A stretch of 64,000 nucleotides of DNA from Thiotrichaceae bacterium. GTDB lineage: Bacteria; Pseudomonadota; Gammaproteobacteria; Thiotrichales; Thiotrichaceae. Below the pieces are notes generated by a model. It searched no databases, had not been told where the DNA came from, and was given only the letters and a program-made list of their open reading frames with translations. Of this stretch, positions 5,951 through 61,232 are shown one piece after another. Both the position numbers and the translations under genes were made by a program. The first letter of the stretch is position 1. The number at the start of each line of letters is the position of its first letter. The stretch covers positions 1 through 64,000 of the forward strand of contig JALXAX010000087.1 in NCBI GenBank assembly GCA_026991755.1, written 5' to 3'.

Positions 5951-6112
5951 CCTGAATCAGTGACTTCACTACGGCATAGGGAATAAGATATTGATTCATC
6001 GCGGGTTTAAAAAATGCCCGCTTAACCTACGGGTGAAGCTAAGATTTTTTAAAATCCCGTGCTAAACCAATCTCTTATCCCCTGTTATCCGCATTGAAGT
6101 CACGGATTCAGG
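5951..6112. repeat. Family 3 palindromic repeat, full copy
   Basis: A 162-bp imperfect palindrome with termini CCTGAATCAGTGACTTCA and TGAAGTCACGGATTCAGG. It is nearly identical to the copy at 46413-46574, and a left-end fragment lies at 38628-38665. It fills the gap between the SirB-family gene and the methyltransferase. The flanking TAATA/TATTA sequence extends the symmetry. No transposase is associated, so it behaves like a MITE. Confidence 0.85.
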
Positions 6113-6117
6113 TAATA

Positions 6118-6483
6118 TTAATGGGCTTTAGAGGCAATAATCAAACCGATAAAAATAATAAAAGCGGTTAGTAAGAGCAATAAAGCGGTTGGTTTTTTTC
6201 TATTAGGCATAAATGCCATGACTGCGAAAGCGACGAATACGAGTAAACCGATAATTTTGGTCAGTACAAAGCCATCATTAAAGGGCATTTTTAGTAGATA
6301 GGCTAAGGTGATGCCTGTTGCAAACAAAATGATCGTCATAATGGATGTGGCGGCTTGCAGTTTTTTACCGAGTTCTTTTTTTGAATTACAAATGGTGAAT
6401 AAAGTGCGTAGTAAATAGAAGCCCATTAATAATAAAACGGAGGCTATATGTAGGTAGGGCAAGGCACTTATTAGATAATTCAT
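6118..6483 (-). CDS. SirB family integral membrane protein
   Basis: A 121-residue protein with four hydrophobic helices (roughly residues 4-26, 43-65, 71-91 and 98-117) and short polar loops. Length, spacing and the opening YLHIASVLLLMGFYLLR fit the SirB family, named from a Salmonella invasion regulator but of unknown biochemical role. It lies 69 bp downstream of purK on the same strand. A family 3 palindrome begins only 5 bp after its stop codon. Confidence 0.75.
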   Translation of the reverse strand: MNYLISALPYLHIASVLLLMGFYLLRTLFTICNSKKELGKKLQAATSIMTIILFATGITLAYLLKMPFNDGFVLTKIIGLLVFVAFAVMAFMPNRKKPTALLLLLTAFIIFIGLIIASKAH

Positions 6484-6552
6484 AGTTTCTGTATTGTCGG
6501 GTAAATAGAGTTATTGATGTTAGCTTGGTTTACTCGTTTAAGGGTTTGGCTT

Positions 6553-7713
6553 TTAGCACTTAGATTCGGAACAAAGCGTTTGGAAAATAGCGTCAGCGGT
6601 ATTGCTTGCTGTTTCAATGTCTTTATCCAAAATGCAGAAATGGCCCATTTTTCTTCCCACTCTTGCTTCTTTTTTACCATACAAATGTAATTTGCTAGCA
6701 GGGTTAGAAAAGACTGACGACCAGTTAGGGTGATCTTCCCCCCACAAATCGCCCAGCATATTTACCATAACCACAGGGCTTAATAATTGCGTGTCACCAA
6801 AGGGTAGGTTGCATACCATTCTTACTTGTTGTTCAAATTGTGAGGTAACACAGGCATCTAGCGAATAATGACCGCTGTTGTGTGTGCGTGGTGCGATTTC
6901 ATTAACGAGTAGCTCGCCTTGTTTACTAACAAAGAATTCAACGGCAAGTACACCAATGTAGTCTAGTTTATCTGCCATGCGAATAGCGGCGGCTTGAGCG
7001 GCTTTGCTGATGGATTCATCGACATTAGCGGGCACGATGCTTTTATGCAAAATGCCATCCACATGAATATTTTCAGCCACGGGGTGGCAATGTGCCTCGC
7101 CTGCACTGTTTCTGGCAAGTACCACTGATATTTCGATATCAAGGTCTATACGTTGTTCTAGTACACAGTCTGCACTATTAAAATGAGCATAACCGTCTTT
7201 TACTTCATCTGCCGAATGAACGGTGATTTGCCCTTTGCCATCGTAACCAAAACGCGCAGTTTTCAGAATGCAGGGAAATTCGACTTCTTCAATGGCTGTG
7301 GCGATTTCTGAGCTGGTAGTGATAACGCCATAAGGTGCGGTTAGCAGTCCACATTCACGAATAAAAGCCTTTTCTACGATGCGGTTTTGAGCTTTCTCTA
7401 TGGCTTCCGCTCTAGGCCGTACTAGAGTTTTTTCTGCAAGTGATTGCAGTGCGGGGGCTGAGATATTCTCAAACTCTGTGGTCACTACCGCACAGTTATC
7501 CGCTAAATAGTGTAAGGCGGATTCGTCATCATAGGCTGCGATGATATGCTCATCCGCTATTTGCCCCGCAGGGCTGTGTTCATCAGGTTCAACGACGCAG
7601 ACGCGATAGCCTAGTTCATTAGCGGCGGAAGTAAACATTCTGCCTAGTTGTCCACCGCCTAGCATGCCGATCATTGCCCCAGGTAGGATGATGTTGTTTT
7701 CTGTCTTACTCAT
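6553..7713 (-). CDS. purK: N5-carboxyaminoimidazole ribonucleotide synthase
   Basis: PurK uses ATP and bicarbonate to carboxylate aminoimidazole ribonucleotide in purine biosynthesis. The protein has 386 residues. It opens with the dinucleotide-like motif GMLGGGQLGRM (about 17-27), then the ATP-grasp core with CILKTARFGYDGKGQ and the metal-binding segment VNEIAPRTHNSGHY. Length is normal. It starts 5 bp after purE ends, and purE supplies the next enzyme (mutase). The two form a minus-strand operon divergent from purC. Confidence 0.95.
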   Translation of the reverse strand: MSKTENNIILPGAMIGMLGGGQLGRMFTSAANELGYRVCVVEPDEHSPAGQIADEHIIAAYDDESALHYLADNCAVVTTEFENISAPALQSLAEKTLVRPRAEAIEKAQNRIVEKAFIRECGLLTAPYGVITTSSEIATAIEEVEFPCILKTARFGYDGKGQITVHSADEVKDGYAHFNSADCVLEQRIDLDIEISVVLARNSAGEAHCHPVAENIHVDGILHKSIVPANVDESISKAAQAAAIRMADKLDYIGVLAVEFFVSKQGELLVNEIAPRTHNSGHYSLDACVTSQFEQQVRMVCNLPFGDTQLLSPVVMVNMLGDLWGEDHPNWSSVFSNPASKLHLYGKKEARVGRKMGHFCILDKDIETASNTADAIFQTLCSESKC

Positions 7714-24756: not shown

Positions 24757-27756
24757 TTGATTAAAGAAAGTCAAATAGAACAGAGTTTGATAGCCAAGTT
24801 CAAAGAACTTAAATATAGCTATCGTGAAGACATTCGTGACAAGTCAACGCTTGAACAAAATTTTCGCCAGAAATTTGAAGCACTCAACCGGGTCAATCTG
24901 ACAGATGCCGAATTCGCCCGTTTGCGTGATGAGATCATCACTCCCGATGTGTTTGCAGCTTCGCAGGCTTTGCGTGAAAAAGGCAAGTTCGACCGCGAAG
25001 ATGGCACACCACTGGAATATATGCTGGTTGATATCCGCGACTGGTGCAAGAATGAATTTGAAGTCATTAACCAGCTTCGTATCAACACGGATGAGAGCTT
25101 TCATCGTTATGATGTGATACTGCTAGTCAATGGTCTGCCGCTGGTTCAGATAGAGCTGAAAACCCTGCAAATCAGCCCACGCCGGGCGATGGAGCAGATA
25201 GTCAACTACAAAAACGACCCCGGCAATGGTTATGGCAATACACTGCTTTGTTTTATGCAGTTGTTTATTGTCAGTAATGAAAACGATACCCTGTACTTTT
25301 CCAATAATCGTAATCGGCATTTCAGCTTTAATGCTGATGAGAGTTTTTTGCCAATCTATCGCCACGCTGATAAAGAAAACAACAAAATCACCCATCTACA
25401 CGAATTTGCAGACGACTTTCTGGAAAAATGCAGACTGGGACAGCTTATCAGTCGCTATATGGTTCTGGTGCAGAGTGAGCAAAAAATTCTGATTATGCGC
25501 CCCTACCAGATTTATGCGGTCAAGGCGATAGTAGATAGCATTGAACAAAATCGCGGCAATGGTTATATCTGGCATACCACCGGCAGCGGTAAAACACTAA
25601 CCTCATTCAAGGCTTCAACCTTATTAAAAGATAATGACGACATCCACAAATGCCTGTTTGTGGTGGATCGCAAAGACCTCGACCGGCAGACCCGCGAAGA
25701 ATTCAATAAATTCCAGGAAGGCTGTGTCGAACACAATACCAATACCGAAATGCTTGTGCGCCGGATGCTATCAGACGACTATGCCGATAAGGTCATCGTC
25801 ACCACCATCCAGAAGCTGGGGCTGGCACTGGATGAAAACAGCAGGCGCAACAAGGCAAAACAAAAAAAGGGCGTACAAACCTATAAACAGCGACTGGCTC
25901 CTCTAAGCGATAAGCGTGTGGTCTTTATCTTCGATGAATGTCACCGCTCCCAGTTTGGTGAAAATCACAAAGCAATTAAATCCTTCTTCCCCAAATCACA
26001 ATTATTCGGTTTTACCGGCACACCGATTTTTGATGACAATGCCACCTACCAACAAATTGAAGGGAATGTCGGCAGCTATAAAACAACCGAAGACATTTTT
26101 GAAAATAGACTACCCGCCTACACCATCACCCATGCGATTGAAGATAAAAACGTATTAAGTTTTCATATTGATTACTTTGGCAAGGACGGCAACAAAAAAC
26201 CCAAAAAAGGGCAAACCTACCCACCTGAAGCGGTGATCAACGCGATACTGGAAAAGCACGCCAGTGCAACCGACCTGCGCCGTTTTAATGCGCTTCTGGC
26301 AACGGCTTCGATTAATAACGCCATAGAATACTATCAGCAGTTTAAAGCCATACAGGCACAAAAACAGGCAGAAGATGAAAGCTTTGAGCCGCTGAATATC
26401 GCCTGTGTGTTCTCGCCACCGGCGGAAGGCAACAAGGACGTGAAGCAGCTACAGGAAGACCTGGCACAAGAAAAGCAAGATAACCAGCAAGAGCCAGAAA
26501 AAAAGAAAGCTGCACTAAAAGCCATTATTGCCGATTACAATCAGCAATACAGCACCAACCACACCATAAACGAATTCGATCTTTATTATCAGGACGTACA
26601 GCAACGCATCAAGGATCAGCAATACAGCAATACCGACTACCCCCGAAAAAACAAAATCGACATTACCATTGTGGTCGATATGCTACTCACCGGCTTTGAC
26701 TCCAAATACCTGAATACGCTCTACGTAGATAAAAACCTCAAGCATCACGGTTTGATTCAAGCCTTCTCGCGCACCAATCGCGTTTTGAATGACACCAAAC
26801 CCTGGGGCAATATCCTCGATTTCCGCTACCAGGAAAGCGATGTGGATGCCGCCATCAAACTCTTCTCCGGTGAAGACAAAAACAAGGCACGGGAAATATG
26901 GCTGGTCGATCCCGCGCCCGAAGTAATAGAAAAATACACACAAGCCGTCGATCAACTGGAAACCTTTATGCAATCCAAAGGGCTAGACTGCGAACCCTCG
27001 CAAGTGCTAAACCTAAAGGGCGACACGGCAAAAGCGGAATTCATTACCCACTTCAGGGAAGTACAAAAACTCAAGACCCAACTGGAGCAATACACCGACC
27101 TCGATGAGCAGAGCAAGGAAACCATAGAAAAACAATTACCTACCGATACCCTGCGCAGTTTCAAGGCGGTTTACCTCGATACCGCACTGGACTTTAAACG
27201 CAGGCAAGGCAAAAACGGCCAAACCAGCCCTGAAATAGAACAACTGGAACTTAATCTGGTGCTATTCGCCTCCACCCTGATTGACTATGACTATATAATG
27301 GGGCTGATTGCCAAATCCACCCAAACAACAGGCAAGCAGAAAATGACGCTGGATCAAATTATCGAGATGATCAGCGCACATTCCAATTTGCAAGAAGAAA
27401 AAGACGATATAAAAGCCTACCTCGAAGCCAACCGCGAAAAACTTAGTAGTAATAGCTTTACCGACAAGGAAATCAAACAAGGCTATCAACAATACAAGGC
27501 GCAAAAAGCCGCCAGTGATCTGGCTAACATTGCCGAAAAACATCAACTGGCAAGTGAAGCACTGCAAGCCTTTGTTGATGATATTCTAGGTCGCATGATT
27601 TTCGATGGCGAACAACTAACCGATTTAATGGCGCCGCTGGATTTGGGCTGGAAGCAGAGGCGCGTAGCCGAACTGGCATTAATGGAAGATCTGCTACCTT
27701 ACCTGCAAAAGCAAGCTGGAGAGCGTGAAATTTCGGGGTTAAATGCGTATGAGTAG
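24757..27756 (+). CDS. hsdR: Type I restriction enzyme, R subunit
   Basis: HsdR is the DNA-translocating and cleaving subunit of a type I restriction-modification complex. The protein has 999 residues. The N-terminal endonuclease domain shows HRYDVILLVNG followed by QIELKT (about 130), the D and E-x-K residues of a PD-(D/E)xK nuclease. The SF2 motor has a Walker A TGSGKT (about 275), DECHRSQFG (about 392) and FTGTPIF. Helical C-terminal segments end GEREISGLNAYE. The start is TTG with AAAGG upstream. It opens an hsdR-dinD-hsdS-ATPase-hsdM array, the reverse of the common M-S-R order. Confidence 0.95.
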   Translation: MIKESQIEQSLIAKFKELKYSYREDIRDKSTLEQNFRQKFEALNRVNLTDAEFARLRDEIITPDVFAASQALREKGKFDREDGTPLEYMLVDIRDWCKNEFEVINQLRINTDESFHRYDVILLVNGLPLVQIELKTLQISPRRAMEQIVNYKNDPGNGYGNTLLCFMQLFIVSNENDTLYFSNNRNRHFSFNADESFLPIYRHADKENNKITHLHEFADDFLEKCRLGQLISRYMVLVQSEQKILIMRPYQIYAVKAIVDSIEQNRGNGYIWHTTGSGKTLTSFKASTLLKDNDDIHKCLFVVDRKDLDRQTREEFNKFQEGCVEHNTNTEMLVRRMLSDDYADKVIVTTIQKLGLALDENSRRNKAKQKKGVQTYKQRLAPLSDKRVVFIFDECHRSQFGENHKAIKSFFPKSQLFGFTGTPIFDDNATYQQIEGNVGSYKTTEDIFENRLPAYTITHAIEDKNVLSFHIDYFGKDGNKKPKKGQTYPPEAVINAILEKHASATDLRRFNALLATASINNAIEYYQQFKAIQAQKQAEDESFEPLNIACVFSPPAEGNKDVKQLQEDLAQEKQDNQQEPEKKKAALKAIIADYNQQYSTNHTINEFDLYYQDVQQRIKDQQYSNTDYPRKNKIDITIVVDMLLTGFDSKYLNTLYVDKNLKHHGLIQAFSRTNRVLNDTKPWGNILDFRYQESDVDAAIKLFSGEDKNKAREIWLVDPAPEVIEKYTQAVDQLETFMQSKGLDCEPSQVLNLKGDTAKAEFITHFREVQKLKTQLEQYTDLDEQSKETIEKQLPTDTLRSFKAVYLDTALDFKRRQGKNGQTSPEIEQLELNLVLFASTLIDYDYIMGLIAKSTQTTGKQKMTLDQIIEMISAHSNLQEEKDDIKAYLEANREKLSSNSFTDKEIKQGYQQYKAQKAASDLANIAEKHQLASEALQAFVDDILGRMIFDGEQLTDLMAPLDLGWKQRRVAELALMEDLLPYLQKQAGEREISGLNAYE

Positions 27757-27777
27757 GGGTTTAGGGGGTGTGAAAGC

Positions 27778-28623
27778 ATGAAATATGAATTGATTGGAAA
27801 TATGACTGAGTCTTTTGAAGGTCATGCACAAGAAACGGAAAGTGGTGTTGAGTACTGGTTAGCGCGTGATTTACAGCACTTGCTGGGTTATACCAAATGG
27901 GATAATTTCCTGAATGTGATTTCCAAGGCAAAAACAGCCTGTGAGTTGTCTGATCATTCAATCTCAAACCATTTTGCCGATGTCGGGAAAATGGTTGAGC
28001 TCGGCTCCGGTAGCCAACGTGAAATCAGTGATATCATGCTAACTCGCTATGCCTGCTACCTGATTGCCCAGAATGGTGACCCAGGTAAAAAGGAAATTGC
28101 CTTTGCACAAACCTACTTTGCCATGCAAACTCGCAAAGCGGAATTAATAGAGCAACGTTTGCTAGAGACGGAGCGTATTAGTGCCCGTAAAAAATTAACC
28201 GATACAGAGAAAGAACTTTCAGGTGTCATTTACGAGCAAACCGGAGGTAATCAAAACTTTGCACTGATACGCAGTAAAGGTGATCAAGCTTTGTTCGGTA
28301 AAAACACCCAGTCAATGAAAGCTGTCTGGAAAGTCCCTGCCAAACGTCCGTTGGCAGATTTTGCTCCAACCATTATTTTAAAAGCCAAGGATTTTGCGAC
28401 TGAAATCACTATCCATAATGCACGTGAGAAAAACATGCAAAGTGAGCCGCAAATATCCAGTGAACATATCACGAATAATAAGGCGGTTCGGGAAACCCTG
28501 TTAAACAGGGGAATACGTCCGGAAAGTCTACCACCCGCAGAAGATGTTAAAAAAGTAGAGCGACGTCTGGCCTCGGCAGAAAAAAAAGCATTAAAAAATC
28601 CAGATAGCCTGGAGGATACATGA
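27778..28623 (+). CDS. dinD: DinD-like DNA damage-inducible protein
   Basis: A 281-residue protein with an N-terminal BRO/DinD domain. Visible are VEYWLARDLQHLLGYTKWDN (about 24-43), a GSGSQREISDIMLTRYACYL segment, and QNGDPGKKEIAFAQTYFA. The C-terminal half is charged. E. coli DinD is LexA-regulated and inhibits RecA filaments in vitro. dinD genes are often found inside type I loci, as here, and no clear LexA box is seen upstream. It is flanked on both sides by copies of the hsdR 3' end, which suggests how it entered the operon. Confidence 0.85.
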   Translation: MKYELIGNMTESFEGHAQETESGVEYWLARDLQHLLGYTKWDNFLNVISKAKTACELSDHSISNHFADVGKMVELGSGSQREISDIMLTRYACYLIAQNGDPGKKEIAFAQTYFAMQTRKAELIEQRLLETERISARKKLTDTEKELSGVIYEQTGGNQNFALIRSKGDQALFGKNTQSMKAVWKVPAKRPLADFAPTIILKAKDFATEITIHNAREKNMQSEPQISSEHITNNKAVRETLLNRGIRPESLPPAEDVKKVERRLASAEKKALKNPDSLEDT

Positions 28624-28628
28624 ACCGC

Positions 28629-28790
28629 ATGACCCTTAAAGGAGAATGGCTTACTAATCTATTGGCGCTACGTGAATCAGGCTGGAAGGCAAGGTGCATG
28701 GCTGAATTAGCATTAATAGACGATCTGTTACCTTACTTGCAAAAGCAAGCCGGAGAGCGTGAAATATCAGGGTTAAATGCGTATGGGTAG
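28629..28790 (+). pseudogene. Remnant of a second hsdR 3' end
   Basis: A 53-codon frame ends LLPYLQKQAGEREISGLNAY plus a stop. It aligns without gaps to the last 50 or so residues of the intact hsdR (TLKGEWLTNLLALRESGW versus FDGEQLTDLMAPLDLGW). The best-conserved DNA is 28681-28785 against 27647-27751. The two have diverged, so the relic came from a different hsdR allele. It sits between dinD and hsdS. Confidence 0.85.
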
Positions 28791-28809
28791 ACAGGAGAAA
28801 AAGAGGCTG

Positions 28810-30126
28810 ATGCCTGAATTGCGGTTTCCTGAGTTTCAGGATAAGGGGGAGTGGGAATGTAAACGATTTGATAAGGTTTATATCTTTAAAGTTACTAACT
28901 CACTTTCTAGGGATAAGCTCAACTATCAACAAGGTGTTGTTAAAAATATCCACTATGGCGATATTCATACAAAATTCTCTACACTCTTTGATATTCAGAA
29001 AGAAATTGTTCCATACATAAACTCGAATGAATCATTAAAAAAGATTAGACCAGAATCATATTGTGTAGAAGGAGATATTATTTTTGCTGATGCGTCTGAA
29101 GATGTTGATGACGTTGGGAAAAGTATCGAAATAGTTTCTCTTCATGACGAAAAGTTACTTTCTGGGCTACATACACTTTTAGCGAGACAAAAGAAGAAAA
29201 AGCTTATAACTGGTTTTGGTGGCTATTTGTTTAAGTCAAATGCAATACGTCAACAGATAAAGAGAGAATCTCAAGGAGCAAAAGTCTTAGGCATATCTGC
29301 AGGAAGGCTTTCATCAATTAATGTTACTTACCCAATTAATAAAAAAGAACAACAAAAAATCGCCGATTGTTTATCTTCTCTGGATCAATTAATTGCCGCG
29401 CACACCAAAAAACACGAAGCACTGCAACGCTATAAAAAAGGCTTGCTGCAAAACCTCTTCCCCGCCGAAGGTGAAAGCGTACCCAAACTGCGTTTTCCTG
29501 AGTTTCGGGGTAAGGGGGAGTGGGATACAGTAAAACTTGGTGATAAAACAAATAAAATTGGAAGTGGAAAAACTCCAAAAGGTGGTAATAAAAATTACAA
29601 AGTTACAGGGCGCCCCTTTGTGAGAAGTCAAAATATAGGCTGGGGGTGTCTTATTTTAGACGATGTTGCTTATATTGATGAAGAAACACATTCATCTTTT
29701 TTAGCTACAGAAATTAAAAAAGATGATGTTCTTCTGAATATTACAGGAGCATCAATTGGTCGTAGCGCTGTGGCGAACCAATTAATTGCAGGTGGAAATG
29801 TTAACCAACATGTTTGCATTATTAGAGCTAAAGAAAAAAAACTAAATCCTTTCTTTTTAAATCTGTTTCTCATGTCACAAAGGGGTCAAAATCAAATTGA
29901 TGGTTTTCAAGCTGGAGGTAATAGACAGGGGCTTAATTTTGGGCAAATTCATTCATTTTCAATCCCTATACCTCCGAAACTTGGTGAACAACAAAAAATC
30001 GCCGATTGCCTAAGCTCCATTGACAAACTCATCACCACTCAATCCCAAAAAATCAAAGCCCTAAAAGCCCATAAAAAAGGTCTAATGCAACGGCTTTTTC
30101 CGTCTATGGATGAGGTGAAGATATGA
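28810..30126 (+). CDS. hsdS: Type I restriction enzyme, specificity subunit
   Basis: HsdS determines the bipartite DNA target of the complex. There are two target-recognition domains, each followed by a conserved helical spacer. The first spacer has EQQKIADCLSSLDQLIAAHT and KKGLLQNLFPAEGE, the second has EQQKIADCLSSIDKLITTQ and KKGLMQRLFPS. Each recognition domain opens with an LRFPEF box. The frame is open from ATG 28777, but those codons lie in the hsdR relic; ATG 28810 (MPELRFPEF) has GGAG/AGAGG upstream and is preferred. The recognition domains are AT-rich against a more GC-rich spacer, as expected for exchanged modules. Confidence 0.92.
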   Translation: MPELRFPEFQDKGEWECKRFDKVYIFKVTNSLSRDKLNYQQGVVKNIHYGDIHTKFSTLFDIQKEIVPYINSNESLKKIRPESYCVEGDIIFADASEDVDDVGKSIEIVSLHDEKLLSGLHTLLARQKKKKLITGFGGYLFKSNAIRQQIKRESQGAKVLGISAGRLSSINVTYPINKKEQQKIADCLSSLDQLIAAHTKKHEALQRYKKGLLQNLFPAEGESVPKLRFPEFRGKGEWDTVKLGDKTNKIGSGKTPKGGNKNYKVTGRPFVRSQNIGWGCLILDDVAYIDEETHSSFLATEIKKDDVLLNITGASIGRSAVANQLIAGGNVNQHVCIIRAKEKKLNPFFLNLFLMSQRGQNQIDGFQAGGNRQGLNFGQIHSFSIPIPPKLGEQQKIADCLSSIDKLITTQSQKIKALKAHKKGLMQRLFPSMDEVKI

Positions 30127-31190
30127 GTTTGGAAGATATTGCCAATCAACTCAAAGATATGGATGAAAATATTATCCTTATTTTTGCTTTTAATGCTACG
30201 GGTAAAACGCGATTGTCTGTTGCCTATAAAGATGTGACTAAAGATGCTAATGGTAAGCATACAGGAGTTTATTACAATGCTTTTAGTGAAGACCTGTTTG
30301 TTTGGGATAATGATGAAGACAATGATGGTGCAAATATTAAACTAAATATTCTGCCTAGCAGTTTAAATCAGTTTCATAGTTTTCTATATGAAAATCCAGA
30401 ATTAATAATGGAGAAGCTTGCACGGTATGCTCCAAGCTACCGTTTTCACCTTAATCAATATGATGATATTGAAGCTGGAATTGAATCTGTCAGATTCTTT
30501 AAAGAGGGTGAAGAGGAAACAGCAATCAAAATATCACGAGGAGAGGAGCGTATTTTTGTCTGGTGTTTTTACTTGGCTCTATTAGAAGTAGATGGTTGGG
30601 CGGATGAGCAAGATGCTCATATATTTATTGATGACCCTGTTTCTAGCTTAGATGAGCATAATATATTTATAACAGCCGACACGATATTTCAGCAAATTGA
30701 ATCCCATTATGAGAGAAAGACAATCATCATTACCACACATCATATAGGTCTTTTTTCCAATTTGGCAAGACGGCTTACTCAAGGTGGACAAAGTGATAGG
30801 TATAGAAACCTGACTGCTTTAAGAGTTTTAAAGAAAGTCGATGATGGGTTGGTTCTTGAAACTCCTTTACGAAATGTCTTTCTTTATCATTTGCATCTTC
30901 TACAAGTATTGGATGAGGCGAGAAATGGACAGCTTTATACCTATCACTTTGCCTTGCTACGACAATTACTTGAGGGAATTACCTCATTTTTAGGGACAAG
31001 TAGAATAGGGCGTACTTTGGAAAAGATTGGTATTCAGGCTGAAAGTATTGATGATGTTATGCATGTAATAAATACTCATTCGCATAAAAATGTTTATTAC
31101 GATCAAACAGAAATGATGAATGAAGCAGAACAAGGTTATTTTAACGATATATTTAGAAAACTCGTTGAAAAATACCAGTTTGTATTTTAG
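30123..31190 (+). CDS. AAA/ABC-type ATPase with anticodon-nuclease-like C-terminus
   Basis: A 355-residue protein inserted between hsdS and hsdM. An ABC-like ATPase core is clear: FAFNATGKT (21-29; the first Walker A Gly is Ala), signature-like ISRGEER (137-143), Walker B and D-loop HIFIDDPVSSLDEHN (166-180), and a switch histidine in IIITTHH. The C-terminus carries Arg280, Glu284 (RQLLE) and His314/His319/His321. The order and spacing resemble the Arg-Glu-His active site of the PrrC anticodon nuclease, which is held inactive by a type I enzyme. RloA-type ATPase is the alternative label. It overlaps hsdS by ATGA. Nuclease function is inference. Confidence 0.7.
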   Translation: MSLEDIANQLKDMDENIILIFAFNATGKTRLSVAYKDVTKDANGKHTGVYYNAFSEDLFVWDNDEDNDGANIKLNILPSSLNQFHSFLYENPELIMEKLARYAPSYRFHLNQYDDIEAGIESVRFFKEGEEETAIKISRGEERIFVWCFYLALLEVDGWADEQDAHIFIDDPVSSLDEHNIFITADTIFQQIESHYERKTIIITTHHIGLFSNLARRLTQGGQSDRYRNLTALRVLKKVDDGLVLETPLRNVFLYHLHLLQVLDEARNGQLYTYHFALLRQLLEGITSFLGTSRIGRTLEKIGIQAESIDDVMHVINTHSHKNVYYDQTEMMNEAEQGYFNDIFRKLVEKYQFVF

Positions 31191-31201
31191 GTAAACTAAT
31201 A

Positions 31202-32827
31202 ATGACTCAAGAAGAACTCAATCAACTCGGTAAAACCCTCTGGAATATCGCTGACCAGTTACGCGGCGCCATGAATGCCGATGATTTCCGCGATTATATG
31301 CTGTCATTTTTATTTTTGCGTTATCTCTCGGATAACTATGAAGCATCCGCCAAAAAAGAGCTGGGGCGGGATTATCCTGTGCCTGATGAGGACGATAACC
31401 GTGCGCCTCTGGCAATCTGGTATGAGGAAAATGCCGAAGATATTGCGGATTTCGAGCAACAGATGCGCCTCAAGGTGCATTATGTGATCGAGCCGCAATA
31501 CCTGTGGAGCAGCATTTATGAAATGGCGCGCACCCAGCATAATGATTTATTGATAACACTTGATAATGGTTTTAAATATATCGAGGAACGCTCTTTTGAT
31601 AGCAGTTTTCAGGGCTTGTTCTCTGAAATTAACCTCTATTCTGAAAAGCTGGGTAAAACACAAAAAGCCCGCAATGAAAAACTGTGCACAATTATTAAAA
31701 AGATTGGTGATGGTATTGCTAAGTTCAGCACCGATACCGATATTCTTGGAGATGCCTACGAATACCTGATTGGGCAGTTTGCCGCAGGTTCGGGCAAAAA
31801 AGCGGGCGAGTTTTATACGCCGCAGCAAATCTCCACGATTTTATCCCGCATTGTAACGCTGGATTCTCAGGAGCCAAAAACAGGACCAAAGAAAAAGCTG
31901 AACAAGGTGCTGGATTTTGCTTGCGGTTCTGGCTCGTTGTTATTGAATGTACGCAAGCAAATCGGTGCACACGGCATTAGCCAGATATACGGGCAGGAGA
32001 AAAATATTACTACCTATAACCTAGCGCGTATGAATATGCTGTTGCACGGTTTAAAAGATAGTGAATTTGAAATTTACCACGGTGATTCATTAAAAAATGA
32101 CTGGGATATTCTCAATGAAATGAATCCAGCCAAAAAAATGCAATTCGATGCCGTGGTCGCCAATCCACCGTTTAGTTATCGCTGGCAACCGTCAGAAGTT
32201 ATGGGCGAAGATTTCCGCTTTAAAAACTACGGCCTTGCGCCCAAGTCCGCCGCCGATTTTGCTTTTCTGTTGCATGGTTTTCATTTTTTGAGTGACAGCG
32301 GCGTGATGGCGATTATCCTGCCTCACGGTGTATTGTTCCGTGGTGGCGCAGAAGCACGTATCCGTACCAAACTGTTAAAAGACGGACATATCGACACCGT
32401 CATTGGCTTACCTGCAAATCTGTTTTTCTCAACAGGTATTCCTGTCTGTATTCTGGTTTTAAAACGTTGTAAAAAGCCGGATGATGTTTTATTCATCAAC
32501 GCCAGTGATAAAGAAAATTTTGAAAAAGGAAAGCGTCAAAATCGCCTTTTACCTGAGCATATCGACAAGATTGTCGATACATACCAATACCGTAAAGAAG
32601 AAGAGCGTTATGCCAGGCGGGTTTCAATGGAAGAAATTGAGAAGAATGACTACAACCTCAATATCTCCCGCTATGTCAGCACCGCCAAGCCAGAGCCAAG
32701 GATAGATATACAGCAGGTGAATCAAAATTTACATGATCTTGAAGAAGATATTATTAAAGCCACCCAAACGCATAATGCCTTTTTAAAAGAGCTTGGCTTG
32801 CCAGCTTTACCGATTGGAAAGGGTTAA
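31202..32827 (+). CDS. hsdM: Type I restriction enzyme, N6-adenine methyltransferase subunit
   Basis: HsdM methylates adenine in the site chosen by HsdS. The protein has 541 residues. An N-terminal helical domain starts LNQLGKTLWNIADQLRG. The SAM-binding motif is FACGSGSLLL (near 239), and the catalytic N6-methyltransferase motif is NPPFSY (near 321), preceded by FDAVVA. The C-terminal tail is helical. Length is typical. It starts 11 bp after the ATPase gene and ends the locus. Three bases after its stop, a new reading frame begins but is cut short (32830-32868). Confidence 0.95.
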   Translation: MTQEELNQLGKTLWNIADQLRGAMNADDFRDYMLSFLFLRYLSDNYEASAKKELGRDYPVPDEDDNRAPLAIWYEENAEDIADFEQQMRLKVHYVIEPQYLWSSIYEMARTQHNDLLITLDNGFKYIEERSFDSSFQGLFSEINLYSEKLGKTQKARNEKLCTIIKKIGDGIAKFSTDTDILGDAYEYLIGQFAAGSGKKAGEFYTPQQISTILSRIVTLDSQEPKTGPKKKLNKVLDFACGSGSLLLNVRKQIGAHGISQIYGQEKNITTYNLARMNMLLHGLKDSEFEIYHGDSLKNDWDILNEMNPAKKMQFDAVVANPPFSYRWQPSEVMGEDFRFKNYGLAPKSAADFAFLLHGFHFLSDSGVMAIILPHGVLFRGGAEARIRTKLLKDGHIDTVIGLPANLFFSTGIPVCILVLKRCKKPDDVLFINASDKENFEKGKRQNRLLPEHIDKIVDTYQYRKEEERYARRVSMEEIEKNDYNLNISRYVSTAKPEPRIDIQQVNQNLHDLEEDIIKATQTHNAFLKELGLPALPIGKG

Positions 32828-52987: not shown

Positions 52988-53064
52988 CACTTTGTCCTAA
53001 ACTTACTACTTACACCGTAAGTTTGGCAATAATAGAGTGGCTCATTCTTAAAGGCGGTCTGGTA

Positions 53065-53838
53065 ATGAAAAATATACGATATACTAAAACAATGCTTTCT
53101 TCGATGAAAGTAGTTGGAGTTATGGCTTTGATGCTACCTGTAACAGGTTTTTCAAACCCTTCTGCTGGAAGTTTTCCAACAGCACCGCAAATGGCAGCAC
53201 CTGCACAGTTTCCACAAATACAAGCGCCGAGTATGCCCACGATGCAAACGCCTTGGCAACAACAGCCAGTACAACAACCGCAAGTGTACCAAGGTTATCA
53301 GCAAAGCTATCCCTACTACCAGATGCCCTATACGCCTTATACCTCTATGCCATTGATGCAGCAGCCTGCTTATAATTACTACCCCTATCAGCAGAATAAA
53401 ACGTACTCGCAAAACCCAATGAATTTTAATACACCGAATTATCAGTTCTCTAAAATGACACCGTTTGGGAACGGTTTTTCACCGACTTCTGTGTTTAATA
53501 ATAACAATTTCCCGACACCCTGGAGCAACAGCAATAACTGGAACCCATGGAGTAATGGCAATAATCAACAAATGCCTTTTTTCTCTCAGAACAACAATAC
53601 TAATAAGAAACATGCATGGGGTGACGTAAGACACATTTGGCCAGATTTCTACACCGAGTTTACGGATGAATTCTGGGATAAATCAACCAATGGTCCTTAT
53701 GATATGGGACGTATGCCAGGTGGGTGGCGAGCACCATCATTAAGCTCTCCAGACCCAGTAACGGTAGGTGATGCAGTACTTAACCAGTTTCCACCGATGA
53801 TGGAAGAAATGGGAAATATGATGGATTTCACCAACTAG
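53065..53838 (+). CDS. Exported Pro/Gln/Asn/Tyr-rich protein of unknown function
   Basis: I do not recognise the family with certainty. A signal peptide (about 1-30, ALMLPVTGFS) is followed by a low-complexity region (about 35-185) with QQQPVQQPQVYQGYQQSYPY, PYTPYTSMPLM and repeated WSN/NNNW motifs. The C-terminal domain is compact and acidic-aromatic: WGDVRHIWPDFYTEFTDEFW, then RMPGGWRAPSLSSPDPVTVG. The composition recalls sulfur-globule envelope proteins of sulfur oxidisers, but this is only a resemblance. The frame extends upstream to 53023; ATG 53065 begins the signal. Confidence 0.55.
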   Translation: MKNIRYTKTMLSSMKVVGVMALMLPVTGFSNPSAGSFPTAPQMAAPAQFPQIQAPSMPTMQTPWQQQPVQQPQVYQGYQQSYPYYQMPYTPYTSMPLMQQPAYNYYPYQQNKTYSQNPMNFNTPNYQFSKMTPFGNGFSPTSVFNNNNFPTPWSNSNNWNPWSNGNNQQMPFFSQNNNTNKKHAWGDVRHIWPDFYTEFTDEFWDKSTNGPYDMGRMPGGWRAPSLSSPDPVTVGDAVLNQFPPMMEEMGNMMDFTN

Positions 53839-55217: not shown

Positions 55218-55247
55218 GGAGATAATTAATCAAGTGATTATCTCCTT
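55218..55247 (+). terminator. Terminator overlapping the hisC 3' end
   Basis: GGAGATAAT/ATTATCTCC with a 10-nt loop is followed by TTTAAT. It lies 57 bp after mltB. The right arm is also the last codons of hisC on the other strand, whose stop is at 55230-55232. Confidence 0.6.
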
Positions 55248-56291
55248 TAATGCTCGACTTAAACTACTCATCTCATCATCTGTTCCTATGGTAATTCTCA
55301 AATAACCATCAATACGTGGTGCATTAAAATAACGTACCAAAATGCCCTTATTTTTTAATTGTAGATAAAGAGATTCAGCCTCAAACCCTTGGGGTGGTTT
55401 TGCAAAGACAAAGTTTGCACTAGAAGGAATAACCTCAAAACCCAACGCTTCCAACGCCGTTGTAGCCTTTTCACGAGTGGCAATGATCTTTTGCCGATTC
55501 TTATCAAAGTTGGCGACATCTTTAATTGAAGCGGTCGCTCCCGCAATAGCGTTACGAGCTAATGCATAGGGATGAAATGAATTTTTAACACGTTCCAAGC
55601 CTTCGATAAGGGCACTGTTACCAACCGCAAATCCAACCCGTAAGCCCGCTAAAGAACGTGATTTAGAAAAGGTCTGTACGACTAATAAGTTGTCATATTG
55701 GTTGATGAGTGAGATAGCGCTATCTGCACCAAAATCCACATAGGCCTCATCAATGACGATGACCGAATTAGGATGAGCTTGTAAAAATTGTTCGATCACC
55801 TCAAGAGATAAGGCTTTGCCTGTTGGGGCATTAGGGTTGGGGAAGATAATCCCTCCATTCTCTTTAGGATAATCCTTAATATCAATCTCAAAATTATCCG
55901 TCAACGGAATTTGCATAGACTCGATATCGAATAACTTGCAGTAAACAGGATAAAAGCTATAGCTAATATCGGGGAATAACAGAGGCGCATCATGCTTGAG
56001 CAAAGCAACAAAGGTGTGAGCAAGCACCTCATCGGAGCTGTTGCTGACAAAGACATTAGTTATGTCCACCGAGTAAAACTCAGCAATAGCACTTTTTAGA
56101 TCCGTTGCACTGGGGTCTGAATACAGTCTTAAATCGTCCCCGCTTGCTGCGATAATAGCTTGCTGTACAGCCTCAGAAGGCGGGTAAGGATTCTCATTAG
56201 TATTCAATTTAATATATTGAACATCTTTAGGTTGCTCGCCAGGTGTATAGGGGGTTAGTTGGTGAATGCGATCACTCCAAAATTGGCTCAT
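55230..56291 (-). CDS. hisC: Histidinol-phosphate aminotransferase
   Basis: HisC transaminates imidazole-acetol phosphate in histidine synthesis. The protein has 353 residues, fold type I. It opens SDRIHQLTPYTPGEQP and contains IKLNTNENPYPPS (about 27-39). The PLP lysine is in FSKSRSLAGLRVGF (about 210), and the C-terminal arginine is in GYLRITIG. No other his gene is adjacent. It is convergent with mltB and divergent from the LCIB-like gene. Confidence 0.92.
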   Translation of the reverse strand: MSQFWSDRIHQLTPYTPGEQPKDVQYIKLNTNENPYPPSEAVQQAIIAASGDDLRLYSDPSATDLKSAIAEFYSVDITNVFVSNSSDEVLAHTFVALLKHDAPLLFPDISYSFYPVYCKLFDIESMQIPLTDNFEIDIKDYPKENGGIIFPNPNAPTGKALSLEVIEQFLQAHPNSVIVIDEAYVDFGADSAISLINQYDNLLVVQTFSKSRSLAGLRVGFAVGNSALIEGLERVKNSFHPYALARNAIAGATASIKDVANFDKNRQKIIATREKATTALEALGFEVIPSSANFVFAKPPQGFEAESLYLQLKNKGILVRYFNAPRIDGYLRITIGTDDEMSSLSRALKEIIT

Positions 56292-56358: not shown

Positions 56359-57465
56359 ATGATTATGAATTTACGGTTAAAGTCGATTCTCGGTAATTTT
56401 AAAATAGAAGACCATACGCTTGAATACGAAGACTTTATAGGACGGTTCTTTAATATGTGTATTGATGAGGGCATGAAGTATGGAAAAATCGTGCCTTCAC
56501 GGGCTTTTTGCTCGGATGAGAGTCAGGGTTTTCCCATTATTTTAATCACCAAACACTTTGGTGCCTTCCCTTTTGATCATGGGCTGGTTGGTGGGATTAT
56601 GGCAAAAGGGCGTAACGTAGCTTACACACATCACGGTAAGGATCTTGCTATCTTTCAGGCAAGTCATGTGGGATATGATGCAGAAACGGGGCATTTTGGA
56701 AAATATCGTAGGTTGCAAACAGCAGATAGTCATATGTCATCAAACTGTGGAAAGGTGCACTCTGTATTAGATTGGTATCAAACAGAGTATGATTTTGCTA
56801 GGGAAAACACCTTATTACAGATTGTTGACAATAAGCATTACATCACCATAGACAATCAGCTATTGGAGCAGGAATATGATGATGGATTGTTTCTTAAACT
56901 AGACTCATTAATTCAACCTCCAAAAGAGGGTGAGAGTAGGGAGCCAGAAAGGATACTAAGTACCTCAAAAGTATTTCGTGCGTCAGATGAGCTGATTGCT
57001 TTTCTAAAAGAGCGTTCATTTATTTGGGTGGAGGAATATGCAAAGCCCTTTGGGCGTTTCTTAAAGCCAGAACTTTTTAAGTTTAAGCACGCGATTGAGG
57101 ATGTTGACCACGTAGGCCACAACTTGCATGAATATATGCCCTGGATAGTAACATCGCGTGAGCCTATGCTAAGTGCGGCAGAAGTTAATGTGCAAATAGA
57201 GTTCGATAAAAGCTATCGTAGGATTGTAAAAGAACCTGCTTATGAAGGAAGAAATCTAATTTACATTGCAGGGTTAAATATTGATTATTCACCTGAGGAA
57301 GGCCAACTCTTTTCCAAAACCCAGTTTGTGCCCTGGGCGTGCTATATACAACATGAAGATGGAACGCACGAAGTGATAGAACAGGATGCACTGTATGAGC
57401 GTCTACTTTCTTGTGATAGCTATAACCCACATACGGCTGATATGAGTGAGGCTTTAGGGCAGTAG
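56359..57465 (+). CDS. LCIB/C-like beta-carbonic anhydrase domain protein (putative)
   Basis: A 368-residue soluble protein. Residues 45-135 show the three metal-ligand blocks of the LCIB-type beta-carbonic anhydrases of algae: SRAFCSDESQGF (Cys51, Asp53), FQASHVGYDAETGHFG (His103) and SSNCGKVHS (Cys130). Canonical beta enzymes use Cys-x-Asp-x-Arg, then His and Cys. The Arg partner is not obvious here. The C-terminal 200 residues have no motif I can name. If correct it interconverts CO2 and bicarbonate, useful for autotrophic CO2 fixation. A recall-based pattern match; a non-catalytic homologue is possible. Confidence 0.6.
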   Translation: MIMNLRLKSILGNFKIEDHTLEYEDFIGRFFNMCIDEGMKYGKIVPSRAFCSDESQGFPIILITKHFGAFPFDHGLVGGIMAKGRNVAYTHHGKDLAIFQASHVGYDAETGHFGKYRRLQTADSHMSSNCGKVHSVLDWYQTEYDFARENTLLQIVDNKHYITIDNQLLEQEYDDGLFLKLDSLIQPPKEGESREPERILSTSKVFRASDELIAFLKERSFIWVEEYAKPFGRFLKPELFKFKHAIEDVDHVGHNLHEYMPWIVTSREPMLSAAEVNVQIEFDKSYRRIVKEPAYEGRNLIYIAGLNIDYSPEEGQLFSKTQFVPWACYIQHEDGTHEVIEQDALYERLLSCDSYNPHTADMSEALGQ

Positions 57466-57563: not shown

Positions 57564-58208
57564 CTAGGCAACAGAGCTGCTCTGCATTGAAAAGTTTTTT
57601 AGTGAATCTAAATCTACAATTTTAATGTGGCAGCGGGTTAGTTTGATTAGCCCTTTTGACTCAAGCTTTCTTAGAGAGCGGCTTGCTACTTCTCTGCTTG
57701 TTCCGACCTCATTGGCAATGCACTGATGAGTTGCCTGTACTGTTTCTTGAGCATTGCGCCGACAAAGAAGGTTTGCTATTCGTGAGTCCATGCAGTTAAA
57801 GACTATGTTATCAGTAAGCTTAATCAACTTGGTCAGCTCGTGTGTTAATTGATGAAAAATATAGGATTGCCAAACAATATCTTCTCTCAACCAAATGCGT
57901 ACTTGCTCGGCAGGGATGACATAAGCAGTTGCTTCATTTTCGGCTTCAAGAATAGCGGGAAACTCTGTTTCATTGAGTATGCAAGAAACTGTTAAGCTAC
58001 AGCACTCACCTGAATTAACACGATATAGTGTATACATACGTCCATCGGCAGAAACTTTATAAGCTCTGAGACAGCCAGAGGCTACCACTAATAAATTAGA
58101 GCATAAGCTTTCCATTTCATGGATGGTTTGTCTAGGGGTGAGCCTGATCTCATGAATCTGATCTTTATAGTGTTCAATAAGAACATGTGGTATTTCTAGA
58201 GCGCTCAT
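57564..58208 (-). CDS. Crp/Fnr family transcription regulator
   Basis: A 214-residue regulator with an N-terminal cyclic-nucleotide-binding-like sensor (about 15-120; RAYKVSADGRMYTLYRVNSGE). A C-terminal winged helix has ATHQCIANEVGTSREVASRS and LRKLESKGLI (about 155-185). Five or more cysteines occur in the sensor half (SGECCSLTVSC at about 67-77), but the spacing is not the N-terminal Fnr cluster. A redox or cluster role is possible. It follows, on the same strand, a nine-heme cytochrome gene with a 409-bp gap. Confidence 0.88.
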   Translation of the reverse strand: MSALEIPHVLIEHYKDQIHEIRLTPRQTIHEMESLCSNLLVVASGCLRAYKVSADGRMYTLYRVNSGECCSLTVSCILNETEFPAILEAENEATAYVIPAEQVRIWLREDIVWQSYIFHQLTHELTKLIKLTDNIVFNCMDSRIANLLCRRNAQETVQATHQCIANEVGTSREVASRSLRKLESKGLIKLTRCHIKIVDLDSLKNFSMQSSSVA

Positions 58209-58617: not shown

Positions 58618-61107
58618 TTACTTTAATTCATTCTTATGACAAAGAATGCAGCTAACTTGCTCTCCCTTCTTCAAATTAACAGTAAAGTTCTTAACTTCAT
58701 TTCCAGGACATAGTGTGCCCTTTTCACATTCTTCGATGACAAAGCTACGATCAGTTGCAACTTTGGATAAGACGGTGCCCTCTCCATTATTGCCATGGCA
58801 GGAACGACAGCTATCAGCCTGCTTCTCTGCTAGCTTCTCATGTCCACCATCAGCGAAAGAACTACCACCAACAGGGTGCATTCCATGAGGGCCGCCTAGC
58901 GTATTACCTAAAGTACCTTTAGCATGACAACTTTCACACTCAACAATGGAGCCTGTATGTCCCTGAACGGTACTGGCAGTAAGGTTATCATTAGCTAGAG
59001 GATTAGCGTTTGGCCAAATAGCATGTGTGCTACCGTGACAACCTTCACACATAATGCCTTCGTGACCTTTGCCCGAACCGTCATTAGAACCACTTAAGCG
59101 ATATAAACTCTGGTTTTCGGCGAAACGAGAGTTGCTTGATTCAATAGGCGTGGCTGAATTATCAGTATCTAAATAAGCCTGTATAAGACGAATACCATCT
59201 TTAGCAACTATGCTTCCAGCAGGATGTCCCAGATTCAATGCGTCACCTGTATGACATGATTGACACTTAGGTTCTGATGCCCAAGGTACTCTTTTATTGG
59301 GGTCTGTTCCTTGCCCTGTTGCCAAGCCTTCGGAGAAGTCATCACCTACTTGTTTCATACCTCCATGACAATCTTGGCAGACTACGCCGCCAGAGAACAT
59401 TGCGCCTCGTAGACACTGTGTTTTATTGCCAGGATGACATTGATAACAGGTGTTTTGCAATACACTGAGCTCAAAGCCATTAATGGCTGGGCCACTAGTA
59501 CGCCTAGGATCATTAGGTGACGGCATGGTTTGGAATGCAGGGTCACCCAGTGCATTTTTATAGCTCGCATGGTTAAAGTGCATCGCTCTGGACATGCTAA
59601 TATGACGTAACTGTTGACGACCTTTAATTCCTTGAGTTGTTTCATTGATAGGGCCAACCTGAGCTAGGTCCAATGCGGGCGTATAATGGCATTGTGCGCA
59701 TTGAATGGGTGTTTGGTTTGCTAAACAATTAGGGCTAGCAGGATCAACCGATGGGTTACATATTGCGGCTGATGCGTCAACGCTACTGGTGTATTTCAAA
59801 CCGTGTTTTGCATCATGAACTCTCAGAATATTCATTTTAGCGGCATTTTGTAGGCGCTCTGGTCCAGGCGCATTAGCGGCTTTTACAATATCAAAAGGCA
59901 CACTGGCAAAAGTTGTAGCTGCGCCATCACCTGCGTCATCAGGGTCTGCATGGCAGTTTTGACAATCTGCTTCACTTGCCACAGGTAATACCAATGGCAC
60001 GGAATCAAGTTCTGTTCCTGTTGTTTTATCAGTTGCGGCAACTTTCATCAATGGATAAGGATTCGACCTACCTTGATCATCAACGGGTAACAATGGAATA
60101 CCATCAGCCGCAAACCAGTTTACATCGGTAATAACGTTGCCAAAAAAGTGTACGTCTTTATCAAACCGAAGGAAGTCTTGAGGTGTATTAGATGTTCCTG
60201 GCATAGCTTGTTGCTTAGCAATCAATGCAGGTAGTGCTGCGACATCAGGTACAGGTAACCCTAAGCCTACGGGTATAGGCTCAAATATTGAGAGTACGCT
60301 TGATGGATAAAACAAAGCATAAGCTAAACCTGCCAATGTGTTATTCGAACCTGGTGGTGTTTGTTGCCAGAAGTTTGTCTTAAATACACTTGCAGTATTT
60401 TGAGAGGTTGTATTGATTGAATTAGCACCAGCTGGATCGGTAGCGCTAGAGGTAGCGGAATATTCCATTCCTACATCAAGGTTAGAGAGAACTCGAGGTA
60501 AAGATGCATCAGTTCCTTTCAAAATAGCCTGTGCATGAACGACATTAAAGGGAGGTAATATGCTAAGTATTTGATAATCCTTATCGGCACAATGCATGCC
60601 TAGATCATTAGCGGCTAGCACCCTAACTTGTGCATTACTGGAGGGCGGAGGAGGCGGTGGCGTATTATTACCATCATCGCAATCAGCAGGTGCTTTTTTT
60701 ACTTTCTTTTCAGCAAAAGCACCATCGGATTGTTCAACTCTCACTCGACAAGGAACAGAGGTAGGGTTGGCAATCTTAAATTTCCATTTTTTCTTGTTGG
60801 AAGTTTGAGTGGCCAAAACAGCCTGAGTGTCAGCATTACTTAATGTTACGGATAACTTCTTCTTACCCTTGCCTTTAACTTTAAGAGTTGATTTTTCATT
60901 ATCCCACTTAGCGCTACTAATTTTGAATTTTGAATCTGAATCCGAGTCCGAGTCTGCTATTGCTCCACTGACGGGAAGTAATCCTATGACAATGAAGAAT
61001 ACAAAAGTAGTAAAAAGGTGGTTTGAGTGAGAAAGCCTTGAAGGCAATAGGTGGTATCGTTTTATGAATCTGACGATTGCTATAGTTTTTATATGATCTG
61101 TTTTCAT
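58618..61107 (-). CDS. Exported nine-heme c-type cytochrome
   Basis: An 829-residue exported protein. The signal (about 31-51, FFIVIGLLPVSGAIA) is followed by an Asp-Ser run and a beta domain (about 55-130). A PPPPPP linker leads to a domain starting RVLAANDLGMHC. There are nine CxxCH heme sites: CQNCH, CAQCH, CYQCH, CQDCH, CQSCH, CEGCH, CESCH, CRSCH and CILCH, spread over about residues 390-826. The many extra His residues can serve as second ligands. It likely carries electrons across the periplasm or to the cell surface. ATG 61107 has GGGAG upstream; a start at 61131 is less likely. Confidence 0.88.
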   Translation of the reverse strand: MKTDHIKTIAIVRFIKRYHLLPSRLSHSNHLFTTFVFFIVIGLLPVSGAIADSDSDSDSKFKISSAKWDNEKSTLKVKGKGKKKLSVTLSNADTQAVLATQTSNKKKWKFKIANPTSVPCRVRVEQSDGAFAEKKVKKAPADCDDGNNTPPPPPPSSNAQVRVLAANDLGMHCADKDYQILSILPPFNVVHAQAILKGTDASLPRVLSNLDVGMEYSATSSATDPAGANSINTTSQNTASVFKTNFWQQTPPGSNNTLAGLAYALFYPSSVLSIFEPIPVGLGLPVPDVAALPALIAKQQAMPGTSNTPQDFLRFDKDVHFFGNVITDVNWFAADGIPLLPVDDQGRSNPYPLMKVAATDKTTGTELDSVPLVLPVASEADCQNCHADPDDAGDGAATTFASVPFDIVKAANAPGPERLQNAAKMNILRVHDAKHGLKYTSSVDASAAICNPSVDPASPNCLANQTPIQCAQCHYTPALDLAQVGPINETTQGIKGRQQLRHISMSRAMHFNHASYKNALGDPAFQTMPSPNDPRRTSGPAINGFELSVLQNTCYQCHPGNKTQCLRGAMFSGGVVCQDCHGGMKQVGDDFSEGLATGQGTDPNKRVPWASEPKCQSCHTGDALNLGHPAGSIVAKDGIRLIQAYLDTDNSATPIESSNSRFAENQSLYRLSGSNDGSGKGHEGIMCEGCHGSTHAIWPNANPLANDNLTASTVQGHTGSIVECESCHAKGTLGNTLGGPHGMHPVGGSSFADGGHEKLAEKQADSCRSCHGNNGEGTVLSKVATDRSFVIEECEKGTLCPGNEVKNFTVNLKKGEQVSCILCHKNELK

Positions 61108-61232
61108 TTTTATGCTCCCTAGTTTGATCATTAACTAGAGAGTATTTAAAATTAAGCGCTCAATGTATGTAACAATTGTTCCCTTGGCATAAAATATAGT
61201 GTGTTTAAAAGGTCTCTTTTAGTAAAACTCGG

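Follow-up and report, generated by a model that had tools for sequence, protein, structure and literature searches.

The window, by which we mean the whole 64,000-nucleotide stretch of a Thiotrichaceae contig analysed here, carries near its end a plus-strand gene for an LCIB-like protein, flanked by two minus-strand genes, an aminotransferase (55230–56291, HisC by eye) and a Crp-type regulator (57564–58208). The Pfam scan found no carbon genes among these flanking genes, no Rfam elements were found around the gene, and plasmid and phage collections gave no match. Elsewhere in the window, a stretch that by eye resembles a type I restriction-modification system with additional genes (24757–32827, plus strand) holds large HsdR-like, two-domain HsdS-like, HsdM-like, DinD-like and ATPase-like open reading frames (ORFs), and 53023–53838 (plus strand) encodes a protein of low complexity with many Pro, Gln, Asn and Tyr residues and no Pfam match. 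Set apart from the LCIB-like gene by the Crp-type regulator is a minus-strand gene (58618–61131) for a multihaem cytochrome-like protein of 837 residues that matches Cytochrome_C7 and, weakly, MtrC/MtrF-type families and is possibly involved in extracellular electron transfer. The features of the LCIB-like gene are as follows.

56359–57465, plus strand: LCIB-like protein gene; open frame of 368 amino acids (aa) with an ATG start, assigned by homologues, fold match and membership of tree clade A
56509–56511, plus strand: Cys51 codon, predicted zinc ligand (CSDE); 82/82, aligned to the Cys of CSDE in PtLCIB4
56515–56517, plus strand: Asp53 codon, predicted acid of an Asp-Arg pair by the zinc-bound water; 82/82, Asp in all four comparators
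56632–56634, plus strand: His92 codon, uncertain candidate for the equivalent of PtLCIB4 His88 (transition-state residue); 82/82
56665–56667, plus strand: His103 codon (SHVG), predicted zinc ligand; 82/82, His in all four comparators
56710–56712, plus strand: Arg118 codon, candidate partner of Asp53; 82/82, Arg in PtLCIB4, 6kfs and 9vzj, Phe in L112
56746–56748, plus strand: Cys130 codon (SSNCG), predicted zinc ligand; 82/82, Cys in all four comparators
56806–57123, plus strand: insertion of about 100 residues (approximately 150–255) relative to short LCIB proteins, seen as a gap block against the 246-aa L112; borders approximate
57124–57399, plus strand: C-terminal segment (approximately 256–347), from the VIA alignment over model residues 15–347 and the sequence alignment with L112, 6kfs and 9vzj

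Conservation was assessed across 82 distinct members of the family, with four LCIB proteins as comparators (PtLCIB4, 6kfs, 9vzj and L112), the last of which bridges the family to the solved structures 6kfs, 9vzj, PtLCIB4, LCIC and LCIB. An earlier note on this DNA had picked out CSDE (Cys51, Asp53), SHVGYD (His103) and SSNCG (Cys130) as an LCIB-type zinc site; these motifs indeed stand at those residues, and go beyond chance: the four residues are invariant in 82/82 sequences and align with their counterparts in PtLCIB4, 6kfs and 9vzj. Judged by sequence, the window protein thus has the Cys-His-Cys order with an Asp two residues past the first Cys, and the zinc-ligand and Asp/Arg/His residues are invariant within clade A too. 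The family motif CSDE is that of PtLCIB4, CRDE occurring in the S47R mutant entry 5b60; CRDE is also what we take to be the motif of algal LCIB/LCIC. His92 aligns with the corresponding His of L112 in one alignment and not in another, and His74 is likewise invariant in 82/82 family sequences; either His74 or His92 could be the counterpart of PtLCIB4 His88.

Sequence profiles reach the family more readily than the window protein itself. Alone, it matched no family in Pfam and NCBIfam at E ≤ 1, PF18599 (LCIB_C_CA) included, and neither PF00484 (Pro_CA) nor PF10070 (DabA) was matched at that threshold. PF18599 was matched at E ≤ 1 by 19 of the 20 members of family alignment A1 (best E 2.9e-7), the window protein being the exception; L002, a paralogue in the same genome, exceeds the cut-off of 25 bits with 25.1 bits, or 25.4 with its neighbours in frame. 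A small four-sequence LCIB profile, with a reporting limit of E ≤ 10, reported 82/82 family members (window protein E 0.0042, best 8.1e-6) against 7 of 1,640 shuffled copies (best E 1.3). For the proposed membership of the LCIB/C domain family, the profile match thus comes through relatives, the window protein itself missing PF18599. Searches against Protein Data Bank (PDB) sequences returned no LCIB match for the window protein, its sole match (E 0.17) being taken as chance, as were Cas9 (E 0.45) for the A1 profile and ComB10 (E 1.4) for the profile of A3, an alignment of the window protein with 64 of the 80 relatives kept for locus analysis. Because the PDB sequence and profile searches gave chance matches, we base the link to LCIB on the Pfam matches of the relatives and on the fold. 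When A3 was compared with L112 as a single sequence, hhalign gave a weak alignment (probability 6.4, E 0.0057) that was nevertheless in register. In a class-level draw, PF18599 matched in 13 of 369 genomes, 7 of them above the cut-off.

The confident AlphaFold2 model, computed from the window protein and 64 homologues (pLDDT 87.8, pTM 0.87), matches LCIB/LCIC and nothing else in Foldseek and VIA-align, in favour of the LCIB-like reading in the earlier note. All of the best eight Foldseek chains were LCIB/LCIC (E 4.5e-6 to 7.2e-3), with an unrelated chain at rank 9 (E 0.31). VIA-align superposed 216/241 residues on PtLCIB4 (5b5y) with Z 18.6 and an r.m.s.d. of 3.1, followed by 6kfs (Z 18.1) and Chlamydomonas LCIB and LCIC (both Z 15.1), the next unrelated structure scoring 4.9, at identities of 10–16% to LCIB chains in these structure alignments. 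Classical beta-class carbonic anhydrase (beta-CA) structures are absent among the fold matches listed, as are beta-CA-type hydrolases; either kind could rank too low to appear. The loop at residues 73–77 is predicted with low confidence, and the secondary structure of the model shows no obvious long hairpin of a membrane-inserting kind.

The match extends over model residues 15–347, with residues of approximately 256–325 aligned to the C-terminal segment of LCIB, which does not support the suggestion that the C-terminal 200 residues are unrelated to the algal domain. Because the aligned range runs to residue 347, the C-terminal half completes the LCIB fold in the model after the insertion; the C-terminal part is thus modelled as the second half of the fold, and the extra length of the window protein (368 aa, compared with 198–248 resolved residues in LCIB chains) as an insertion.

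A scan of Genome Taxonomy Database (GTDB) genomes yielded 308 relatives, of which 80 were kept. By their labels, many of these come from sulfur-oxidizer lineages or symbionts (of Lamellibrachia, Escarpia and Solemya, and Thiodiazotropha, Sedimenticola, Chromatiaceae and Thiotrichaceae); the others are mostly Gammaproteobacteria, plus Contendobacter and two Desulfobacteraceae bins. The family members in the bins labelled Desulfobacteraceae (L088 and L107) are explained either by gene transfer beyond the Gammaproteobacteria or by misbinning of the contigs. The gene was matched in 29 of the order's 63 genomes and, in a draw across the phylum, in 1 of 398, this being its own genome. In a tree of the 82 family sequences and four LCIB comparators, the window protein falls in clade A, nine sequences with support of 100/100, all from its own taxonomic family and on a long stem branch (0.6). 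Its own genome (G000; 3.66 Mb, 207 contigs) holds one paralogue, the above-mentioned L002, which is 49% identical to it and groups with sequences from tubeworm and Solemya symbionts; since the two proteins fall in separate clades, the genome holds two old gene lineages. Locus L074 carries two LCIB-like copies about 1.5 kb apart on opposite strands (3366–4469, minus; 5965–7107, plus).

To describe gene neighbourhoods, ORFs in the 80 loci were clustered and the clusters named from Pfam scans of representatives. Per 80 loci, the clusters comprised SulP (17), Proton_antipo_M (16), two CitMHS-type clusters (11 and 8) and DabA (7), the last thus occurring in the same loci as the LCIB-like gene. At least one of these classes lies within 3 kb of the gene in 33 of 78 loci and directly beside it in 25 (L079 and L097, without a called family ORF, were dropped from the 80), Proton_antipo_M genes being directly adjacent in 12 of the 78 and within 3 kb in 16. 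In L034, DabA, three Proton_antipo_M genes and the LCIB-like gene follow one another on one strand; in L055, a MnhB/MnhC-like and antiporter set precedes the LCIB-like gene, which is followed by SulP. Within the flanks retrieved, carbon-type genes are no denser near the gene than farther out (39 of 278 versus 53 of 403 ORFs); long operons running through the flanks make this a weak control, though its result does not speak for a linkage. Most of the closest orthologues, at the clade A loci, have no carbon-gene neighbours. In five of these loci (L128, L129, L130, L131 and L132), a conserved 430-residue aminotransferase-family protein precedes the gene on the same strand; the window gene also adjoins an aminotransferase, although in divergent orientation, unlike in those five.

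Of the order's 63 genomes, 45 gave a match to RuBisCO, 14 to CsoS2 and 36 to DabA. In 10/10 genomes with both the gene and CsoS2, the gene lies 1.8–12.6 kb from the RuBisCO large-subunit gene, in a table that omits some distant extra copies, by which nearest distances cannot lengthen; it lies 3.5–14.4 kb from CsoS2 in 9 of these 10 and 32 kb away in the remaining one. Four genomes of the order have CsoS2 without the LCIB-like gene. In L136, L140 and L141, the gene is near a LysR-type regulator, CbbL, CbbS and CsoS2, with CsoSCA also present at L141 (confirmed) and L140 (by eye), while L136 also has a BMC-domain protein and, directly beside the gene, a full Mrp-like set. In genome G450, it sits between CbbLS–CsoS2–CsoSCA–CsoS1 and genes for an antiporter subunit and DabA. 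These carboxysome-linked genomes are not independent, because they belong to three genera of one family.

Across the order, 26 of the 29 genomes that carry the gene have RuBisCO, as do 19 of the 34 that lack it (P = 0.003, shared ancestry uncorrected); among high-quality genomes, the association is not significant (P = 0.12), and G418 and G442, which carry the gene and are nearly complete, gave no RuBisCO match. Co-occurrence with DabA is not beyond chance in the 63 genomes (P = 0.32). Among high-quality genomes, the gene is carried by 9 of the 11 that lack Pro_CA and by 14 of the 35 that have it (P = 0.018, shared ancestry uncorrected), an association that is not significant over all 63 genomes (P = 0.15); group A of the Pro_CA test comprises 10 genomes assigned by identity, and clade A of the tree nine sequences. 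A part in inorganic-carbon handling, raised in the earlier note, thus finds backing in relatives near DabA, Mrp/NDH-like antiporters, SulP and alpha-carboxysome/RuBisCO genes, but not at the window locus, which is without a carbon neighbour.

The genome of the window fits the sulfur-oxidizing autotroph that the note had supposed, with a SoxB match (702 bits summed) and a form II RuBisCO that scores 873.5 bits with the PRK13475 model. It also encodes two DabA genes with antiporter-type partners, and gave no CsoS2 match. A carbonic anhydrase (CA) search that covered alpha-CA and Pro_CA found one alpha-CA with an N-terminus resembling a signal peptide by eye and no Pro_CA (PF00484) match at E ≤ 1e-6.

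Taken together, we think it likely that the window gene encodes a cytosolic, zinc-dependent CA of the LCIB type (beta class) that serves carbon supply, within a family spread across sulfur-oxidizing Gammaproteobacteria; its catalysis and physiological role are what we infer from a predicted fold and from observed residues, relatives and neighbourhoods. Zinc would be held by Cys51, His103 and Cys130 with water as the fourth ligand; Asp53, probably paired with Arg118, would help deprotonate this water, a conserved His (His92 or His74) would stabilize the transition state, and CO2 and bicarbonate would be interconverted. Because G000 has DabA and form II RuBisCO, and no detected classical beta-CA or CsoS2, we propose, as the simplest role, equilibration of the pool: the DabA pumps would load bicarbonate, free form II RuBisCO needs CO2, and the window protein, together with its paralogue, would keep the two forms in equilibrium in the cytosol in lieu of a Pro_CA enzyme. 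In relatives with alpha-carboxysomes, the partner gene may instead serve to recover CO2 that has leaked out, a function put forward for algal LCIB.

It is unlikely, on balance, that the protein has kept the LCIB fold and is catalytically silent, with a structural, sensing or partner-dependent function. Such a state would resemble that of Chlamydomonas LCIB and LCIC, which have the zinc site and for which a review (PMC5876011) gives no measured CA activity in vitro, describing an important His162/161 and Arg194/193 as disordered; the long stem of clade A and the lack of carbon-gene neighbours at most of its loci point the same way. Against it, the ligands and the Asp/Arg/His set remain invariant in clade A, no Pro_CA was detected in G000, and the protein has, in place of CRDE, the CSDE of the active PtLCIB4; PMC9614477 calls the diatom proteins PtLCIB3 and PtLCIB4 constitutively active. 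More improbable is a dedicated hydration subunit on a proton-conducting NuoL/Mrp-like membrane module, forming an energy-coupled CO2 trap in the manner of DabA–DabB or CupA–NDH-1. The adjacent or nearby Proton_antipo_M genes counted above, and the full Mrp-like set beside the gene in L136 and the partial one in L055, would suit such a subunit, yet the window gene has no antiporter neighbour, its protein no evident long membrane-inserting hairpin, and the role would be partly duplicated by DabA, which is present in many such genomes and beside the gene in 7 loci. The precedent is DabA itself, a cytoplasmic subunit of beta-CA-like type whose partner is NuoL-like (PMC13144422); according to the same paper, DabA2 has a Cys-His-Cys zinc site and an Asp-Arg dyad, has lost the usual Gln/His and shows no spontaneous hydration.

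COS and CS2 are hydrolysed by some beta-CA relatives, and the host, with its SoxB, is a sulfur oxidizer; a beta-CA-fold hydrolase for such a small molecule nevertheless seems very improbable, given the Ci pumps, RuBisCO and carboxysome genes among the relatives' neighbours and fold matches that, among those listed, are to LCIB and not to beta-CA-type hydrolases. Returning to the preferred reading of a cytosolic LCIB-type CA, it is possible, if doubtful, that in sulfur-oxidizing Gammaproteobacteria, including animal symbionts, this LCIB lineage is a dedicated partner of DAB/Mrp pumps and alpha-carboxysomes that recaptures leaked CO2, in the way suggested for algal LCIB around the pyrenoid. A free cytosolic CA is expected to short-circuit the carboxysome by leaking CO2, and for this reason regulation, localization or coupling to a membrane module has to be assumed in carboxysome-bearing relatives.

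LCIB is known from carbon concentration in algae, diatoms and hornworts. PF18599 recognizes some of the relatives as LCIB-like, so membership itself is not new. What appears to be new is a bacterial lineage with the long insertion and its linkage to carbon genes: among the titles and abstracts that searches of the open-licence literature listed, none describes LCIB proteins of bacteria as a family adjoining DAB or carboxysome genes. This bacterial branch, which the Pfam and NCBIfam libraries leave nameless or barely recognize as LCIB-like, would be a further element of CO2 concentration in chemolithoautotrophs, offers bacterial systems for testing an LCIB function still debated in algae, and poses the puzzle of how carboxysomes and a cytosolic CA can coexist. 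Were the dedicated-partner reading true, bacteria and algae would share an LCIB strategy for concentrating CO2, one that may be older than the algal mechanism.

Among known systems, classical beta-CA (PF00484) is the class to which LCIB is assigned in PMC5876011; the window protein differs in having no PF00484 match, and G000 has none at E ≤ 1e-6. DabA (PF10070) shares the beta-CA-like character, the Cys-His-Cys zinc site and the Asp-Arg dyad (PMC13144422), but is about 1,100 aa long in the genomes examined, contains a pair of beta-CA-like domains and acts together with DabB, and no sequence relation to it was found. A genuine short LCIB_C_CA protein from another gammaproteobacterial genome (L112, 1459–2199, minus strand; PF18599 254.9 bits), by which LCIB proper occurs in bacteria too, has the motifs CSDD, PHIG and CCG; it differs in its 246-aa length without the insertion and in neighbours that, by eye, are not carbon genes. 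Chlamydomonas LCIB and LCIC (5k5w, 5b5x) have the fold in common with the window protein (Z 15.1) and a conserved site of the Cys-His-Cys type, and differ in the lack of measured in vitro activity reported in PMC5876011. Phaeodactylum tricornutum PtLCIB4 (5b5y) and 6kfs, a chain with an LCIB_C_CA domain, share with the window protein the fold, the CSDE/HVG/CG ligand motifs and the Arg after the His strand. The window protein departs from them in its roughly 100-residue insertion and in the sequence that runs from Cys51 to His103.
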